Part shown: positions 23,390 through 31,600 of the stretch, in pieces
How positions within the stretch are numbered: position 1 is the first letter of the stretch
Layout: each line of letters opens with the position of its first letter
From: Saprospiraceae bacterium
GTDB lineage: Bacteria > Bacteroidota > Bacteroidia > Chitinophagales > Saprospiraceae
Direction: 5' to 3'
Assembly (NCBI GenBank): GCA_020629255.1
Contig: JAHDDR010000014.1
Span: 1 to 39,354 of the forward strand
DNA: 39,354 bases
Notes under the pieces: model-generated
What the model was told of the DNA's origin: nothing
What the model saw: the letters and a program-made list of their open reading frames with translations, nothing else
Databases searched by the model: none
Program-made: the position numbers and the translations under genes

Positions 23390-24799
23390 ATGAAAAATCT
23401 AATATTAACAGCAGGTGTGCTTTTCTGCACAATACCCGTTTGGGCACAATCGCATACTAAAAACGCTTTTATTGAAATTGAAAGGAACAACAACCAATTT
23501 GTTTATTGCTGTGGTAATACAGGCACTCTTATCGACAGTACGAATTTGATGGAGTTTATTAGTGATTATGACTATAATATCCTACCATTTCCTGGAGAAT
23601 GGGCTTTCCAAGACGTTTTATCCATAAATGATATGAGCTATAACATAGAAGACCATTCTGTTTGTGAAGGAGGCACAGGAGATGATTTAATTGCTATTGT
23701 AAATGGCAGAACCCAACAACCACAAGGTACATACAGTACCATATATAAAGCAACCGTCTCTGGGCTAAGTACAGACAGCACTTATACCGTTTGTGGCTTT
23801 TTGAAAAATTTGCCACAAGGACTATATGATGTATTGCCTTCTGTTAGGTACACGTTTACAGATGCAACGGGTTATTCTTCTTGGCAAACGGTTTCTACTG
23901 ATCCAAACGATCCATGCGATTGGCAAAGGTATTCTGTTGATTTCAGACCCACAAACAGTACTGTAACCATGGAATTTCAAATACGGGAAGATGGAATTGG
24001 CGATGGAAATGACCTAGCCATAGATGATTTCTCTCTAAATTATGCTCAAAATTATAATGTACAAACTACAATAGAGAGCCAAACCGTCAATTCTGACCAT
24101 TCCATCGTTACAGGTTCAATTAATAGCTTGTCCATCAGTGATGATGTTTTACCAGACTCAGCTTGTAAATATATTTGGTTGGTAGCGGAATCAACAAATG
24201 TGAGTGCTACCTTATATTATCCCGATTTGTCCAATATCATGGTAGGAGATAACGACCCATCAAACAATAGTACCGCTGACTGGGGTTTAACGACCACTTT
24301 CCCCGGTTATAATGGTGGAGTAACCAACGGAATTTTTGAAAATAGCAAATTGTACATGGTTCTTTTATATGTGTATAATTGCGATTGTTCACCTAATGAT
24401 TTCACATTTCAATATGTATATAATTTAGGTAAACAGGATGAAGACATAAAAATCATGAAGCCGGAATTTTCTGAAAAAACGAAGAAAGATTTGGAATCCG
24501 AAATCAAGCAAATTCTTAAAAATGGAAATTCCCAAACGCTTGATAAAAAGAATGTAGAAAATACGTCTTTAAAAGTCTACCCGAATCCAAGCAAAAATGT
24601 TTTTAATGTAGATTTGAAAGCATACGAAGGTGAATCGGAAATCAGAATTCTAGACAGTTCCGGAAGAATCGTAGAAATGTTCCAGACCGAAGAACCTTCT
24701 TTGGAAATTGATTGGTCTCGACACCCGAACGGAGTATATATGCTCCAAGTAACACAAGGCGGCAACACCTCAATTCAGCGACTATTGAAAACTGATTAA
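23390..24799 (+). CDS. Secreted T9SS type A cargo protein of unknown function
   Basis: Signal peptide 'MKNLILTAGVLFCTIPVWAQ'; C-term 'LKVYPNPSKNVFNVDLKAYEGESEIRILDSSGRIVEMF...HPNGVYMLQVTQGGNTSIQRLLKTD'. Confidence 0.85.
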   Translation: MKNLILTAGVLFCTIPVWAQSHTKNAFIEIERNNNQFVYCCGNTGTLIDSTNLMEFISDYDYNILPFPGEWAFQDVLSINDMSYNIEDHSVCEGGTGDDLIAIVNGRTQQPQGTYSTIYKATVSGLSTDSTYTVCGFLKNLPQGLYDVLPSVRYTFTDATGYSSWQTVSTDPNDPCDWQRYSVDFRPTNSTVTMEFQIREDGIGDGNDLAIDDFSLNYAQNYNVQTTIESQTVNSDHSIVTGSINSLSISDDVLPDSACKYIWLVAESTNVSATLYYPDLSNIMVGDNDPSNNSTADWGLTTTFPGYNGGVTNGIFENSKLYMVLLYVYNCDCSPNDFTFQYVYNLGKQDEDIKIMKPEFSEKTKKDLESEIKQILKNGNSQTLDKKNVENTSLKVYPNPSKNVFNVDLKAYEGESEIRILDSSGRIVEMFQTEEPSLEIDWSRHPNGVYMLQVTQGGNTSIQRLLKTD

Positions 24800-24827
24800 T
24801 ATTAGTATTGAGGACAGTTTCATTCAG

Positions 24828-24861
24828 ATCTCTCGGCAAATTTTGCCGGGAGATTTTTTTT
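24828..24861 (+). terminator. Rho-independent terminator
   Basis: ATCTCTCGGCAAA / TTTTGCCGGGAGAT followed by TTTTTTTA. Confidence 0.8.
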
Positions 24862-25058
24862 ATTTCTAATAATTCTAATAGAGTAGCATGGTCTTGCGAC
24901 TCTTGTTAAAAACAGATTTTATTTTGTTGAATATTTTTTTTCCCTTTAAAATACGGTAAAATTCAATTTAACCTATATGATATTTCAATTTCAAAACAAG
25001 CTTTCTTTCCTTCAAAATAGAACCCAATTATTCTTAATGTATTTAACCAGAAGGCACA

Positions 25059-25090
25059 TTTGATTTTATATCGAAACTTGTCTAACTTAG
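25059..25090 (+). promoter_or_regulatory. Bacteroidota-type promoter for the ilv operon
   Basis: TTTG (25059-25062) -20 nt- TAACTTAG (25083-25090), one mismatch to TAnnTTTG; about 20 bp before the leader ATG. Confidence 0.55.
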
Positions 25091-25109
25091 TTCCATACTA
25101 ATATTTCAA

Positions 25110-25169
25110 ATGAGACATTTATCCAACATCATTATTATCATTTCTATTATTATTGTGATTCCACAATAA
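25110..25169 (+). CDS. ilv operon leader peptide (19 aa, 9 Ile + 1 Val codons)
   Basis: ATG AGA CAT TTA TCC AAC ATC ATT ATT ATC ATT TCT ATT ATT ATT GTG ATT CCA CAA TAA = MRHLSNIIIIISIIIVIPQ*. Confidence 0.85.
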   Translation: MRHLSNIIIIISIIIVIPQ

Positions 25170-25175
25170 AAGGAA

Positions 25176-25237
25176 GGATAGTTTTGATACACAAAATAAA
25201 TGAAAAGCTGTCCAAATAAATTTGGACAGCTTTTCTT
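25176..25237 (+). promoter_or_regulatory. Transcription attenuator: antiterminator arm and terminator hairpin upstream of ilvD
   Basis: Terminator AAAAGCTGTCCAAA (25203-25216)-taaa-TTTGGACAGCTTTT (25221-25234), 14-bp perfect stem; alternative pairing GGATAG-TTTT (25176-25185) with AAAA-g-CTGTCC (25203-25213). Confidence 0.8.
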
Positions 25238-25248
25238 AATTTATACCA

Positions 25249-26925
25249 ATGGAATTAAACAAATACAGCAAAGAAGTAACCAGCGATGATTCAAGACCCG
25301 CAGCCCAAGCCATGCTCCATGCGATCGGTCTTACTGAAGATGACTTGAAGAAACCTCAAATAGGTGTAGCAAGTATGGGCTGGGATGGCAACCCCTGCAA
25401 CATGCACCTCAATGATTTGGCGAACCACGTCAAAGAAAGCATCAATCAAGAAAATCTGATTGGGCTGATATTTAATACCATCGGTGTAAGTGATGGTATT
25501 TCCATGGGAACCTCCGGAATGAGGTATTCACTTCCAAGCAGGGATATTATTGCCGATTCTATAGAAACAGTCGTCAGCGCTCAATGGTATGATGCAGTAG
25601 TTGCAGTGGTCGGATGTGATAAAAACATGCCAGGTGCACTAATGGCATTAGGAAGACTCAATCGACCGGGCATTATTCTTTACGGAGGAACCATCAGTCC
25701 AGGATGCCATGCAGGTAAATCCTTGGATATCGTTTCTGCTTTCGAAGCACTGGGACAAAAAATCGCTGGAGAAATTAATGAAGAAACCTTCAAAGCCATC
25801 AAGCAGAAAGCCTGTCCCGGCCCAGGGGCATGTGGAGGCATGTACACTGCCAACACCATGGCATCTGCTATTGAAGCCTTAGGAATGGGCTTACCCTATT
25901 CTTCATCCAACCCCGCAACGAGCGAAAATAAAAAGACAGATAGCAAAGCGATTGGAAAAGCCATTAAATTGCTGTTAGAAAAAGACATCAAACCCAAAGA
26001 CATCCTAACAAAAGAAGCCTTCGAAAATGCCATTACCTTAATAACAGTTCTCGGAGGATCAACCAATGCAGTCCTTCATTTAATTGCCGTTGCCAAATCC
26101 GTTAATGTTGATATTACCTTGGATGATTTCCAACGCATCAGCAACAAGACGCCTTACTTGGCAGATTTGAAGCCATCTGGTAAATATTTGATGGAAGATT
26201 TGCATCACGCAGGTGGTGTTCCCGCTGTGATGAAATTTTTATTGGATAAAGGATTCTTACACGGCGATTGCCTGACTGTCACAGGTAAAACAATGGCAGA
26301 AAACCTGAAGGAAATCCCCCCCTTGGACCCAGAACAAAAGATTATTTTCCCTTTAGAAAATCCCATCAAAGAAACAGGGCATCTTCAAATTCTATATGGC
26401 AATTTGGCACCAGAGGGAGCCGTCGCCAAAATAACAGGTAAAGAAGGAACGGAATTTGAAGGAATAGCTAAAGTCTTTGATAGTGAAGAAGAGGCAAACC
26501 AAGCCATCATGAACAAAGAAATACAGGCAGGTAATATCGTGGTGATTCGTTATTGCGGTCCCAAAGGCGGTCCAGGAATGCCTGAAATGCTCAAACCCAC
26601 ATCACTCATTATGGGAGAAGGGCTAGGAAACCAAGTAGCATTGATTACCGATGGTCGCTTTTCGGGAGGAACACATGGCTTTGTGGTCGGCCATATTACA
26701 CCCGAGGCTCAAGCTGGCGGTCCCATCGCTTTTTTAAAAGATGGTGATAAAATTAGAATAGACGCCAAAGAAAATAAAATTCAAGTTTTGATTTCTGAAA
26801 AAGAAATGACCACAAGAAAAGGAGAATGGACAGCCCCAAAACTCAAAGCAAAATCAGGGCTATTATATAAATATGCAAAAACAGTTTCATCAGCAAGCGA
26901 AGGCTGCGTGACAGATGAATTCTAG
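25249..26925 (+). CDS. ilvD: Dihydroxy-acid dehydratase
   Basis: '[23 protein letters not shown]', '[21 protein letters not shown]', '[19 protein letters not shown]'. Confidence 0.97.
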
Positions 26926-26943
26926 AACCTAAATACCACAGCA

Positions 26944-28695
26944 ATGAAGGTAAAAGAAAAGAAAAAACAAAAAGCAAATAAAGAGACAGAAAAGATAACA
27001 GGTGCAGAAGCCGTTCTAAAATGTCTTTTAGCAGAAGGGGTCGATACCATTTTCGGATATCCGGGAGGAGCCATCATGCCCGTATATGATGCTTTATATT
27101 ATTATGCGGATAAGATCAACCACATTTTACCAAGACATGAGCAAGGAGCGACCCATGCTGCGGAAGGTTATTCAAGGGTAACCCGTAAAACTGGGGTCTG
27201 CATGGCTACGTCCGGACCTGGAGCCACCAATTTGGTAACGGGCATTGCAGATGCCATAATGGATTCCACGCCTATGGTTTGCATCACCGGACAAGTGGCA
27301 AGCCATGTGCTAGGCTCTGATGCGTTTCAAGAAACAGATGTGATTGGCTTGACGACCCCCATCACAAAGTGGAATTATCAAATTACCAAAGCAGCAGAAA
27401 TTCCAGAAGTCTTTGCCAAAGCATTTTATATCGCAAACTCTGGAAGACCCGGTCCTGTCGTCATTGACATCACCAAAGATGCCCAATTGGAAAATTTTGA
27501 TTTCAAATACGAGAAAATCAATGAAATCCGTAGTTACCACCCTGTTCCAAAACCCAATAAAGAAAGAATTTCTGAAGCAGCAGACCTCATCAACAAAGCA
27601 AGAAAACCTTTCATTTTGGCGGGACATGGAATCCTAATTTCCGGAGCAAAAGATGAGTTTATAAAATTCGTAGAAAAAACAGGAATTCCTGTAGGAACGA
27701 CCATTCATGGATTATCTTCTATCCCCACAAGCCATCCCTTGAACATGGGTATGTTGGGCATGCATGGCAATTATGGCCCCAATGTAAAAACCAATGAATG
27801 CGATGTGCTAATAGCCATCGGAATGCGTTTCGATGATCGGGTTACCGGAGATGTAAAAAGATATGCGACCCAAGCCAAAGTCATACATATTGAAATAGAC
27901 CCCTCCGAAATCAATAAAAATATTCCGGCAGACATTCCGGTTTTAGCCGATGTAAAAATGGCATTAGAAGCATTGTTGCCTTTGGTCAAGGAAAAAAAAT
28001 ATCCAAAGTGGGAAAAAGAATTCCATCATTGTGAAGCCGAAGAGCAAAAATGGGTGAAAGAAAAAGCACTACAACCCGCAGACAATGGTTTGATGAGAAT
28101 GGGGCAAGTTATTAAAGAAGTTTCGGATCAAACTAAAGGGAAAGCCATTGTCGTAACAGATGTAGGCCAACACCAAATGTATGCGGCTAGATATTATGAT
28201 TATGAATGTACCAATCAATGGGTATCTTCGGGCGGAGCAGGAACAATGGGCTTTGGTCTTCCCGCAGCCTTCGGGGCAAAATATGCACATCCGGAAAAAG
28301 AAGTAATCGCTATCGTTGGAGACGGAGGCTTCCAAATGACCCTTCAAGAATTAGGCATGTGTTCCCAATATGGAATCAATGTAAAAATACTTTTATTGGA
28401 TAATAATTACTTAGGCATGGTAAGACAATGGCAGCAATTGTTTTTTGATAGAAGATATTCATCCGTAGCATTAGAAAATCCGGATTTCATAACCATAGCA
28501 AAAGGCTTTGGTGTCGAAGGAAAAACCATTTCCCATACATCCAAGCTTAAGAAAGGAATCAAGAAAATGTTGAAACACAAAGGGCCTTACCTTCTGCATG
28601 TCATGATAGAAAAAGAAGACAATGTATTCCCGATGGTTCCTACGGGATATTCTGTTTCAGAAATCATTCTAAGACCTGAAGAATTAAAAAAATAG
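26944..28695 (+). CDS. ilvB: Acetolactate synthase large subunit
   Basis: '[20 protein letters not shown]', '[14 protein letters not shown]', TPP motif '[15 protein letters not shown]...[17 protein letters not shown]'. Confidence 0.97.
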
Positions 28696-28699
28696 AATT

Positions 28700-29260
28700 A
28701 TGGCAATAGCATCTGATATAAAACAAGAATATACCATTACCATTTTTTCTGAAAATACGGTAGGATTATTAAGTCGTGTTGTAGGCGTATTTACCAAACG
28801 GCACATCAACATAGAAAGCATTGTCGCTTCGGAATCTTCTATGAAAGGAATTTACAAATACACCATAGTCGTTTGTGTAGATGAAATCCTAGTTCGCAAA
28901 CTAATATCCCAACTCGATAAGCAAGTGGATGTACTCAAAGCCTTCCATTATCGAAGGGATGAAATCGTGTATCAAGAAATTGCATTATACAAGGTGGTAG
29001 CAGAAAAATTCAAGGAAGGAAGCAGTATCGAACAATTGATTCGCAAACACAATGCCCGGTTATTAAGTGTAGAACCGGAGTTCTTCGTCTTGGAAAAAAC
29101 AGGGCATAAAGAAGAAACGGAGGCTCTTTTAAACGACTTGAAAGCAGAAGGTGCCGTATTCGAATTCGTTCGTTCTGGAAGAGTGGCAATCATCAAACCC
29201 ATGGAACGCCTGAATACTTATTTAGAATCCTTAAAAGACATAACAGTATCAATGGATTAA
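28700..29260 (+). CDS. ilvN: Acetolactate synthase small (regulatory, ACT) subunit
   Basis: 'YTITIFSENTVGLLSRVVGVFTKRHINIESIVASES' ACT domain; position after ilvB. Confidence 0.95.
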   Translation: MAIASDIKQEYTITIFSENTVGLLSRVVGVFTKRHINIESIVASESSMKGIYKYTIVVCVDEILVRKLISQLDKQVDVLKAFHYRRDEIVYQEIALYKVVAEKFKEGSSIEQLIRKHNARLLSVEPEFFVLEKTGHKEETEALLNDLKAEGAVFEFVRSGRVAIIKPMERLNTYLESLKDITVSMD

Positions 29261-29315: not shown

Positions 29316-30362
29316 GTGGCAAAATTGAATTTCGGAGGCGTAGAAGAAAACGTCATAACAAGAGAAGAATTTCCATTAGAAAAAGCATTGGAAACCATGA
29401 AGGATGAAACCATTGCCGTTATCGGTTATGGTGTTCAAGGGCCGGGTCAATCCCTCAATCTGAGGGACAACGGTTTTAATGTCATTGTAGGACAAAGAAG
29501 TCCTTCAAAATCATACGACAAAGCCATAAAAGATGGGTGGATTCCAGGCGAAACCTTGTTTTCCATTCCCGAAGCATGCGAAAAAGCATCCGTCATTTTT
29601 TACCTATTGTCTGATGCGGCACAAATTGCAGTTTGGCCTACTCTCAAAAAATATTTGACTCCAGGCAAAGCTTTATATTTTTCCCATGGATTTGGTATCA
29701 CATACAACGAAAGAACTGGCATTATCCCCCCCGAAGGCATAGATGTTATCTTATGTGCCCCTAAAGGTTCAGGCACTTCGTTAAGAAGATTGTTCCTAGA
29801 AGGGCGAGGCTTGAATTCTTCCTACGCCATCCATCAAGATGCGACAGGAAAAGCATTCGAAAGAGCCGTTTCTTTAGGGATTGGCGTTGGGTCGGGCTAT
29901 TTATTCGAAACCACCTTCAAAAGAGAGGTCTATTCCGATTTGACCGGCGAACGGGGCACTCTGATGGGAGCCTTGGCAGGTTTGTTCGAAGCCCAATATG
30001 AAGTTTTGAGAGAACGAGGACATTCTCCCAGCGAAGCGTTCAATGAAACAGTAGAAGAATTAACTCAATCCCTTATGCCTTTAGTGGCGGAAAATGGAAT
30101 GGATTGGATGTATGCTAATACCTCTACCACCGCACAAAGAGGAGCCTTGGACTGGAGCAAACGTTTCAAAGCATTAACGAAACCACTCTTTAACGAATTA
30201 TATGATGAAGTGGCAGCCGGAAGGGAAGCCCAAATATCCATAGATTCCAATAGCCAACCCGACTATCGGGAAAAGTTAGAAGTCGAACTCAAGGACATCA
30301 GAGAATCTGAAATCTGGAAAGCAGGCAAGGTTGTTCGTTCACTTCGTCCCGAAAATAAATGA
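29316..30362 (+). CDS. ilvC: Ketol-acid reductoisomerase (GTG start)
   Basis: 'ETIAVIGYGVQGPGQSLNLRDNGFNVIVGQR', 'CAPKGSGTSLRRLF', 'SDLTGERGTLMGALAGLFEAQYEV'. Confidence 0.96.
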   Translation: MAKLNFGGVEENVITREEFPLEKALETMKDETIAVIGYGVQGPGQSLNLRDNGFNVIVGQRSPSKSYDKAIKDGWIPGETLFSIPEACEKASVIFYLLSDAAQIAVWPTLKKYLTPGKALYFSHGFGITYNERTGIIPPEGIDVILCAPKGSGTSLRRLFLEGRGLNSSYAIHQDATGKAFERAVSLGIGVGSGYLFETTFKREVYSDLTGERGTLMGALAGLFEAQYEVLRERGHSPSEAFNETVEELTQSLMPLVAENGMDWMYANTSTTAQRGALDWSKRFKALTKPLFNELYDEVAAGREAQISIDSNSQPDYREKLEVELKDIRESEIWKAGKVVRSLRPENK

Positions 30363-31600
30363 TACAGCTAGAAAAAATTTATGAAGCAAGGGTAAGACTC
30401 AGAGGGGTAATTGATAAAACCCCTCTGATGTATAATCATTTTCTTTCTGAAAAATATGATTGCCATGTTTATTTGAAAAGAGAAGATTTGCAAGTCGTAC
30501 GCTCCTATAAAATCAGAGGTGCATATAATAAGATGTCCCAACTCTCTCCTGGTGCAAAACAGAAAGGGGTAGTTTGTGCAAGTGCAGGAAATCATGCACA
30601 AGGCGTTGCTCTGGCTTGTAGTCTTCTTGAAATCAAGGGTAAAATTTACATGCCCAACCCCACCCCGAGGCAAAAAGTAAATAAAGTAAAACGGTTTGGC
30701 AAGGATTGGGTAGAGGTCATCCTTACAGGAGACACCTTCGATGATGCCTACACTGCCGCCATTCATGATGCAGAAACATCCAACCAATCATTTATCCATC
30801 CTTTTAATGATGAGCAAATCATGGAAGGGCAAGGAACGGTCGGGCTGGAAATTCTGGAAGATTCCAAAGAAAATATCGATTTACTTTTTGTACCCATAGG
30901 AGGTGGCGGTTTAGCCAGCGGGCTGGGTTCCTGTTTCAGAAAATTGAGTTCCCACACTCAAATCATCGGAGTGGAACCCAAAGGAGCCCCTGCGATGAAG
31001 CGTTCCATTGAATCGGGAAAATTGGTCAATTTAAAATCCGTTGATACATTTGTCGATGGAGCAGCTGTTAAATCCGTAGGAGACAAAACCCTCAAAATTT
31101 CTCAAGAAGTACTAGAAGAAATTAAGTTGGTGTCCGAAGGAAAAGTATGTACTACCATTCTTGAATTATACAATGAAGAAGCCATCGTTGTAGAACCTGC
31201 CGGAGCCTTAACCATTGCGGCACTTGATACTTGTAAGGAACTCATAAAGGGAAAAAATGTAGTTTGTGTGGTTAGTGGCGGAAACAATGACATCACCCGA
31301 ATGGAAGAAATCAAGGAGCGTTCTTTGATTCACGAAGGATTCAAGCATTATTTTGTTATCTCATTTCCTCAACGGGCAGGCGCCTTGAAAGAGTTCGTCA
31401 ATCATGTTTTAGGTGCAGAAGATGATATCACCTTTTTCCAATACACAAAAAAAAATAGCAGGGAAAAAGGTCCGGCCCTAGTAGGCGTTGAACTTAAAGA
31501 TAAAAATGATTATGAAGGCCTCATCAGACGTATGGAGCAAGTGGGTATTTCTTATAGCACAAGAGAAATGAATCCGGAAATATTTGATTTTATCGTTTGA
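30359..31600 (+). CDS. ilvA: Threonine ammonia-lyase with C-terminal ACT-like regulatory domain
   Basis: 'LKREDLQVVRSYKIRGAYNKM', 'CASAGNHAQGVALAC', 'PIGGGGLASGLG'; ATGA overlap with ilvC. Confidence 0.96.
   Translation: MIQLEKIYEARVRLRGVIDKTPLMYNHFLSEKYDCHVYLKREDLQVVRSYKIRGAYNKMSQLSPGAKQKGVVCASAGNHAQGVALACSLLEIKGKIYMPNPTPRQKVNKVKRFGKDWVEVILTGDTFDDAYTAAIHDAETSNQSFIHPFNDEQIMEGQGTVGLEILEDSKENIDLLFVPIGGGGLASGLGSCFRKLSSHTQIIGVEPKGAPAMKRSIESGKLVNLKSVDTFVDGAAVKSVGDKTLKISQEVLEEIKLVSEGKVCTTILELYNEEAIVVEPAGALTIAALDTCKELIKGKNVVCVVSGGNNDITRMEEIKERSLIHEGFKHYFVISFPQRAGALKEFVNHVLGAEDDITFFQYTKKNSREKGPALVGVELKDKNDYEGLIRRMEQVGISYSTREMNPEIFDFIV

Follow-up and report, generated by a model that had tools for sequence, protein, structure and literature searches.

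A probable isoleucine-sensing leader-peptide attenuator upstream of ilvDBNCA in a Saprospiraceae genome, and similar modules in other Bacteroidota

Ribosome-mediated attenuation is best known from Proteobacteria and Actinobacteria. The leaders of E. coli ilvGMEDA (IlvL) and ivbL, and other proteobacterial trp, his, leu and thr leaders, are leader-peptide attenuators in which a short ORF rich in codons for the product of the operon is combined with overlapping antiterminator and terminator stems and with a stop codon beside the antiterminator arm; an alternative fold silences RNA that is not translated. The ilvB, ilvB-II and ilvB-OMG motifs and the ilvBNC attenuator of C. glutamicum have an upstream ORF (uORF) rich in branched-chain amino acid codons and a terminator before ilv genes (PMC10272879, PMC11857589). 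For F. psychrophilum, one sentence with transcriptome support describes leader-peptide attenuation of amino-acid biosynthesis operons; the conserved 5' elements named in the main text of that paper include pheA and hisG, and 'ilv' is not found there (PMC9723704). The Bacteroid-trp motif (RF01692) is a registered cis-regulatory motif of Bacteroidetes, with a name that points to trp genes (PMC2864571), and the Salmonella mgtCBR leader carries two short ORFs, each tied to attenuation (PMC3641672).

We analysed a stretch of 39,354 nt (the window), contig C111 of genome G000, which measures 4.4 Mb and is 89% complete; the named close matches of its IlvD are from Saprospiraceae MAGs. A sequence-only reading of the window had proposed an attenuator upstream of ilvD, consisting of a 19-codon ORF with nine Ile codons, a 14-bp terminator hairpin with a 4-nt loop, a competing stem and a promoter. 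ORF and hairpin were found as placed (Table 1). By direct reading the leader ORF contains 9 Ile, 1 Val and 1 Leu codons among its 19, so that codons for a product of the operon are enriched ahead of ilvDBNCA. Positions 25203-25234 form a perfect 14-bp stem with a 4-nt loop, to which G25202-C25235 adds a fifteenth pair; with its T-rich tail, this intrinsic terminator lies between the leader ORF and ilvD and ends 14 nt before the ilvD ATG. The U-tract of the window is interrupted and poorer than those of its relatives (typically 6-9 T). The leader fold has an energy of -41.6 kcal/mol compared with -17.9 kcal/mol in shuffled sequences (z = -7.2; 0/200 shuffles equally stable). The competing stem is real and sits at the proposed site, but the bulged G that had been drawn in it is unnecessary: GGAUAGUUUU (25176-25185) pairs with AAAGCUGUCC (25204-25213) through 10 contiguous pairs, 2 of them G-U (-9.5 kcal/mol as a hairpin and -13.1 kcal/mol as a duplex). 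Antiterminator and terminator are mutually exclusive, the 5' arm of the terminator being common to both.

The candidate promoter is present as it had been written, but it is weak evidence since equal matches are common by chance: the window site agrees with TAnnTTTG at 5/6 positions, and a best match of at least 5/6 occurs in ~61% of shuffled leader upstream sequences. Perfect 6/6 matches precede 20/87 leaders (see below) versus ~6% of shuffles. The preceding gene ends in a terminator of its own, which makes a separate promoter for the leader probable. The product of this upstream neighbour (23390-24799, forward strand) carries a type IX secretion C-terminal sorting domain (TIGR04183).

Table 1. 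Features of the ilv leader and operon in the window
Feature	Position	Strand	Basis or remark
Terminator of preceding gene (CDS 23390-24799)	24826..24856	+	14-bp U-tailed hairpin AGATCTCTCGGCAAATTTTGCCGGGAGATTTTTTTT; parts gene from leader
Candidate promoter TTTG (25059-25062)-N20-TAACTTAG (25083-25090)	25059..25090	+	direct reading
Leader peptide ORF	25110..25169	+	MRHLSNIIIIISIIIVIPQ*; stop codon 25167-25169
Putative regulatory Ile codons of leader (codons 7-17)	25128-25160	+	
Segment 2, antiterminator 5' arm	25176..25185	+	GGATAGTTTT; 7 nt past stop codon; 10-bp pairing with 25204-25213
Segment 3, terminator 5' arm, also used by antiterminator	25202..25216	+	folding
Segment 4, terminator 3' arm	25221..25235	+	T-rich tail TTTTCTTAATTT after; first T of tail within stem
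ilvD, dihydroxy-acid dehydratase	25249..26925	+	NCBIfam NF002068 / TIGR00110 above cut-off; only copy in G000
ilvB, acetolactate synthase large subunit	26944..28695	+	TIGR00118
ilvN, acetolactate synthase small subunit	28700..29260	+	TIGR00119, above cut-off
ilvC, ketol-acid reductoisomerase	29316..30362	+	TIGR00465
ilvA, threonine ammonia-lyase	30359..31600	+	TIGR02079 / NF006390

Our reading, to which we assign a probability of about 0.93, is that this leader is a ribosome-mediated transcription attenuator which senses the charging of Ile-tRNA (and to some extent Val-tRNA) and controls ilvDBNCA, very probably turning the ilv genes on only when isoleucine is short. A ribosome would translate the Ile-rich ORF while RNA polymerase transcribes the leader. 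With ample Ile-tRNA it would reach the stop codon and cover the 5' part of segment 2, the terminator hairpin would form and transcription would end before ilvD. With Ile-tRNA scarce, it would stall at codons 7-17 and leave segment 2 free to pair with 25204-25213 as these emerge, before the 3' arm of the terminator is made, and polymerase would read through into ilvDBNCA.

The sequence-only reading had suggested folding the leader with its ORF masked. We modelled a ribosome footprint, assumed to extend 13 nt beyond the first base of the A-site codon, on nascent chains that end before segment 4, and the predicted fold flips in the direction expected. In the window, the antiterminator probability per pair is 0.99 with the ribosome at Ile7, Ile11 or Ile17, 0.01 with the ribosome at the stop codon and 0.16 without a ribosome; in silico, the position of the ribosome decides the fold. 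Over the 87 modules described below, upstream pairing of the terminator 5' arm averages 0.60 (stalled), 0.05 (stop) and 0.23 (no ribosome), and stalled pairing exceeds stop pairing in 83 of them; there is no switch in the model at L015, L125, L146 and L021. In full-length RNA the terminator is always thermodynamically favoured, and the switch must therefore be kinetic and be decided before segment 4 is transcribed. The decision likewise precedes the transcription of segment 4 in the classic E. coli model. Since the arm of the window begins 7 nt past the stop codon, masking by the ribosome would be partial. Without a ribosome the leader codons pair with segment 2 in the model (hence the 0.16), and untranslated leader RNA is thus predicted to terminate as well.

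The distribution of such modules was analysed in 149 ilvD upstream regions, some taken from relatives with whole genomes and the others from named GTDB genomes, by scanning for ATG-started, I/L/V-rich ORFs that have a U-tailed hairpin no more than 45 nt downstream. Modules were found in 76/149 regions; after clean-up, in which duplicates were dropped and a Leu-rich match (MLLLLSLSLLYQ) overlapping the leader of L007 and the match at L076 were removed by hand as spurious, 87 non-redundant modules in 71 loci remained. Their design is uniform: an I/V-rich ORF, its stop codon, 18-38 nt and a U-tailed hairpin, with an antiterminator arm at or near the stop. The hosts are Saprospiraceae, Flavobacteriaceae (Aquimarina, Arenibacter, Muricauda, Maribacter, Dokdonia, Flavivirga, Flavobacterium and Aequorivita), Fulvivirga, Roseivirga and others. 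On the reverse strand the same scan matched in 15 loci; 14 of these matches resemble the antisense of real modules (L140 does not), so that this control overestimates false positives. Within the genus, an Ile/Val-rich leader ORF is present in 8/9 genomes (G000, G001 and G003-G008), with an imperfect hairpin in G003 and a weaker leader in G008; in G002 (L135) there is no leader in the 286 nt of upstream sequence present. A comparison of the ilvD leaders of relatives had also been suggested, and in these the Ile/Val-rich ORF proved to be kept together with the alternative stems. An independent phylum-wide sample of 60 loci yielded modules in several further families (by family: f43, 5/9; f25, 6/13; f24, 2/2; f21, 2/3), of which a few may be chance matches, for example the Leu-rich L205; upstream of ilvD in these 60 loci, some fifteen other families gave no module. 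It is common for a leader to lie >1 kb upstream of ilvD, and the absence of a module before ilvD can mean that the leader stands before another first gene. In a subgroup of Saprospiraceae (L013, L017, L021, L023, L025 and L126) the leader peptide enters the antiterminator arm, often ending in ...GGWY; with the stop codon downstream of the arm, a finishing ribosome would cover the arm fully.

The spacing of these modules bears on the best placed of the alternatives, namely that the hairpin hides or frees the ribosome binding region of ilvD, or that the leader acts through reinitiation. The 14 nt between hairpin and ATG in the window would suit such translational control. Across the relatives, however, the stop-to-hairpin distance stays nearly constant (18-38 nt) while the stop-to-ilvD distance runs from 62 to >500 nt, a pattern that favours transcription termination over control of the ilvD ribosome binding site; the hairpin itself lies from <10 nt to hundreds of nt from ilvD but retains its U-tail and its spacing from the leader stop. 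We regard translational control as very improbable.

If the leader did no sensing, the hairpin would be a constitutive partial terminator and the ORF a chance frame in AT-rich DNA. The region is indeed AT-rich, as are Ile codons, and the hairpin would by itself make a good terminator. The ORF is nevertheless exceptional: among 889 ATG-started ORFs of 8-60 codons on both strands of the window it is alone in having at least 8 I/L/V residues in 10 codons, and its score of 9 was reached in only 5/20,000 dinucleotide shuffles of 25040-25248. Moreover, an I/V-rich ORF at a fixed distance from the hairpin recurs in the 71 loci, the sequences of which have diverged. Leader residues in 59 loci comprise 32.1% Ile, 16.5% Val and 4.5% Leu, and G-containing Val codons are numerous (GTC, 81; GTG, 48). 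Because most Val codons are GTC and GTG, the composition, judged from the sequences, is an Ile/Val signal and not a general hydrophobic or AT-rich one.

A terminator without sensing is also at odds with the coevolution of the arms. The register of the arms differs too much between families for a single alignment, and we therefore used a partner-permutation test in place of a covariance model: the segment 2 of each of 59 loci was re-dealt among the segment 3 partners 20,000 times. Pairing of segments 2 and 3 from the same locus has a mean of -11.8 kcal/mol, compared with -8.2 kcal/mol (SD 0.3) for re-dealt partners, and 0/20,000 permutations reach the value for own partners (p = 5e-5). The effect holds within a mainly Saprospiraceae set (39 loci, p = 5e-5) and within Flavobacteriaceae (20 loci, p = 0.002). 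The permutation leaves some shared ancestry in place; this makes partners more interchangeable and hence works against the effect observed. All six standard pair types are seen in the 2:3 helices and segment 4 varies in step with segment 3. The alternative stems proposed from the sequence alone thus have arms that coevolve, and a chance ORF before a constitutive terminator appears extremely unlikely.

A riboswitch, a T-box or a protein-bound leader, with the ORF incidental, is just as remote a prospect: in Firmicutes and certain other bacteria ilv operons are indeed controlled by such devices, but no Rfam family reaches its gathering threshold for the ilv leader, the best weak matches in a permissive search (in which many chance matches also appear) are leader-peptide attenuators (His_leader RF00514, 35.6 bits against a cut-off of 49; Thr_leader RF00506, 29.4 against 55; Phe_leader RF01859, 24.5 against 55), and what relatives conserve is the codon content of the peptide, not an aptamer-like sequence.

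The genes downstream agree with a leader-peptide attenuator that senses isoleucine and valine. The order ilvD-ilvB-ilvN-ilvC-ilvA, in one run, is borne out by NCBIfam models above their cut-offs. It had been argued that an Ile/Val-rich, Leu-poor leader fits an ilv operon without leu genes; Leu makes up the 4.5% given above, and leuA (TIGR00973) and leuC (TIGR00170) have no match in G000 (89% complete). For leuA, congeners gave weak partial matches only, which we read as absence. At this completeness it is suggestive, and not proof, that the organism may not make leucine and is possibly a leucine auxotroph that makes isoleucine and valine; a lack of leucine synthesis would fit a leader that ignores Leu.

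Several loci carry more than one module. Three modules in series occur in F. psychrophilum (L078; -1318 to -930 relative to ilvD) and in Aequorivita sinensis (L105), and two each in several Aquimarina, two Flavobacterium, Ulvibacter antarcticus and two Saprospiraceae (L011 and L024; the other double-module loci are L056, L060, L068, L097, L109, L053, L080, L081, L083 and L089). The tandem modules are often near-identical and precede ilvD or its upstream neighbour. In the literature searched we found no report of stacked leader-peptide attenuators for a single amino acid. By a narrow margin, we favour the view that Ile/Val attenuation is an ancient, phylum-wide and uncatalogued control of Bacteroidota ilv operons, in which, in several lineages, two or three stacked near-identical modules act as a multi-gate sensor that imposes several independent ribosome checks on each RNA polymerase. 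If so, stacked modules should give steeper induction with a lower leak than a single attenuator, and the tandem copies offer a direct test of the benefit of stacking. Transcription and translation would also be tightly coupled in a phylum with little Shine-Dalgarno initiation. To our knowledge, such coupling has been little explored in Bacteroidota; these leaders would be natural reporters of it, since attenuation of this kind works only if the ribosome keeps up with RNA polymerase.

Leaders for other amino acids were seen in the same genome. Upstream of hisG (G000:C118; L152:1326-1404) there is a His-rich leader, MRQNLHHTHHHSMLSRRRVVGDAYV (MRQNLHHTHHHSML...), followed by a strong 17-bp U-tailed hairpin; the same place in G090 (L151:1333-1390) reads MNINNKHHHHLPIGTQTR. 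Upstream of trpE (G000:C237; L166:1273-1333) a Trp leader, MKLIFNTKGWWRKTLSITG, is accompanied by a strong terminator, and a congener has MNFYSNTNWWWPSTFLNRE before trpE (L165). Given their like build, the attenuator of the window would be one of a set. Bacteroidota thus appear to use attenuation as a regular layer of control over the synthesis of isoleucine/valine, of histidine and probably of tryptophan, in a form not present in Rfam.

That such logic in a Bacteroidota ilv operon deserves attention, as had been claimed, needs qualifying: precedents exist in the phylum (PMC2864571 and, as far as its main text goes, PMC9723704), and the mechanism is widespread here (71 loci). The mechanism class itself is known; its spread across the phylum and the stacking of modules are what is fresh. 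Lopatovskaya et al. 2010 (Mol Biol 44:128) is said to be a wide comparative survey of attenuation and may already list some Bacteroidetes cases, so novelty is claimed with reserve. The ilv leader is very likely a functional leader-peptide attenuator, a known class of which it would be an unregistered member found across the phylum. It resembles the E. coli type in its product-codon-rich ORF, its overlapping stems, its stop codon beside the arm and a fold, here predicted, that silences untranslated RNA; it differs in relying on Ile (with Val) almost without Leu, in preceding an operon without leu genes, in belonging to another phylum and in showing no detected sequence homology, its matches staying below Rfam thresholds. 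With the ilvB motifs and C. glutamicum ilvBNC it shares a uORF rich in branched-chain amino acid codons, a terminator and the same inferred logic; those motifs lie upstream of ilvB in Corynebacterium, Leptospira and others, whereas the Bacteroidota modules precede ilvD or the gene before it and have arm sequences of their own. The F. psychrophilum case, to judge from its main text, is of the same phylum and mechanism class (PMC9723704). Bacteroid-trp comes from the same phylum too, but at threshold its model matches neither the ilv leader of the window nor any of eight related loci, among them the two trpE loci L165 and L166. Nearest to the stacked modules is the mgtCBR leader, in which the two ORFs differ, whereas the modules described here are near-repeats serving one amino acid.
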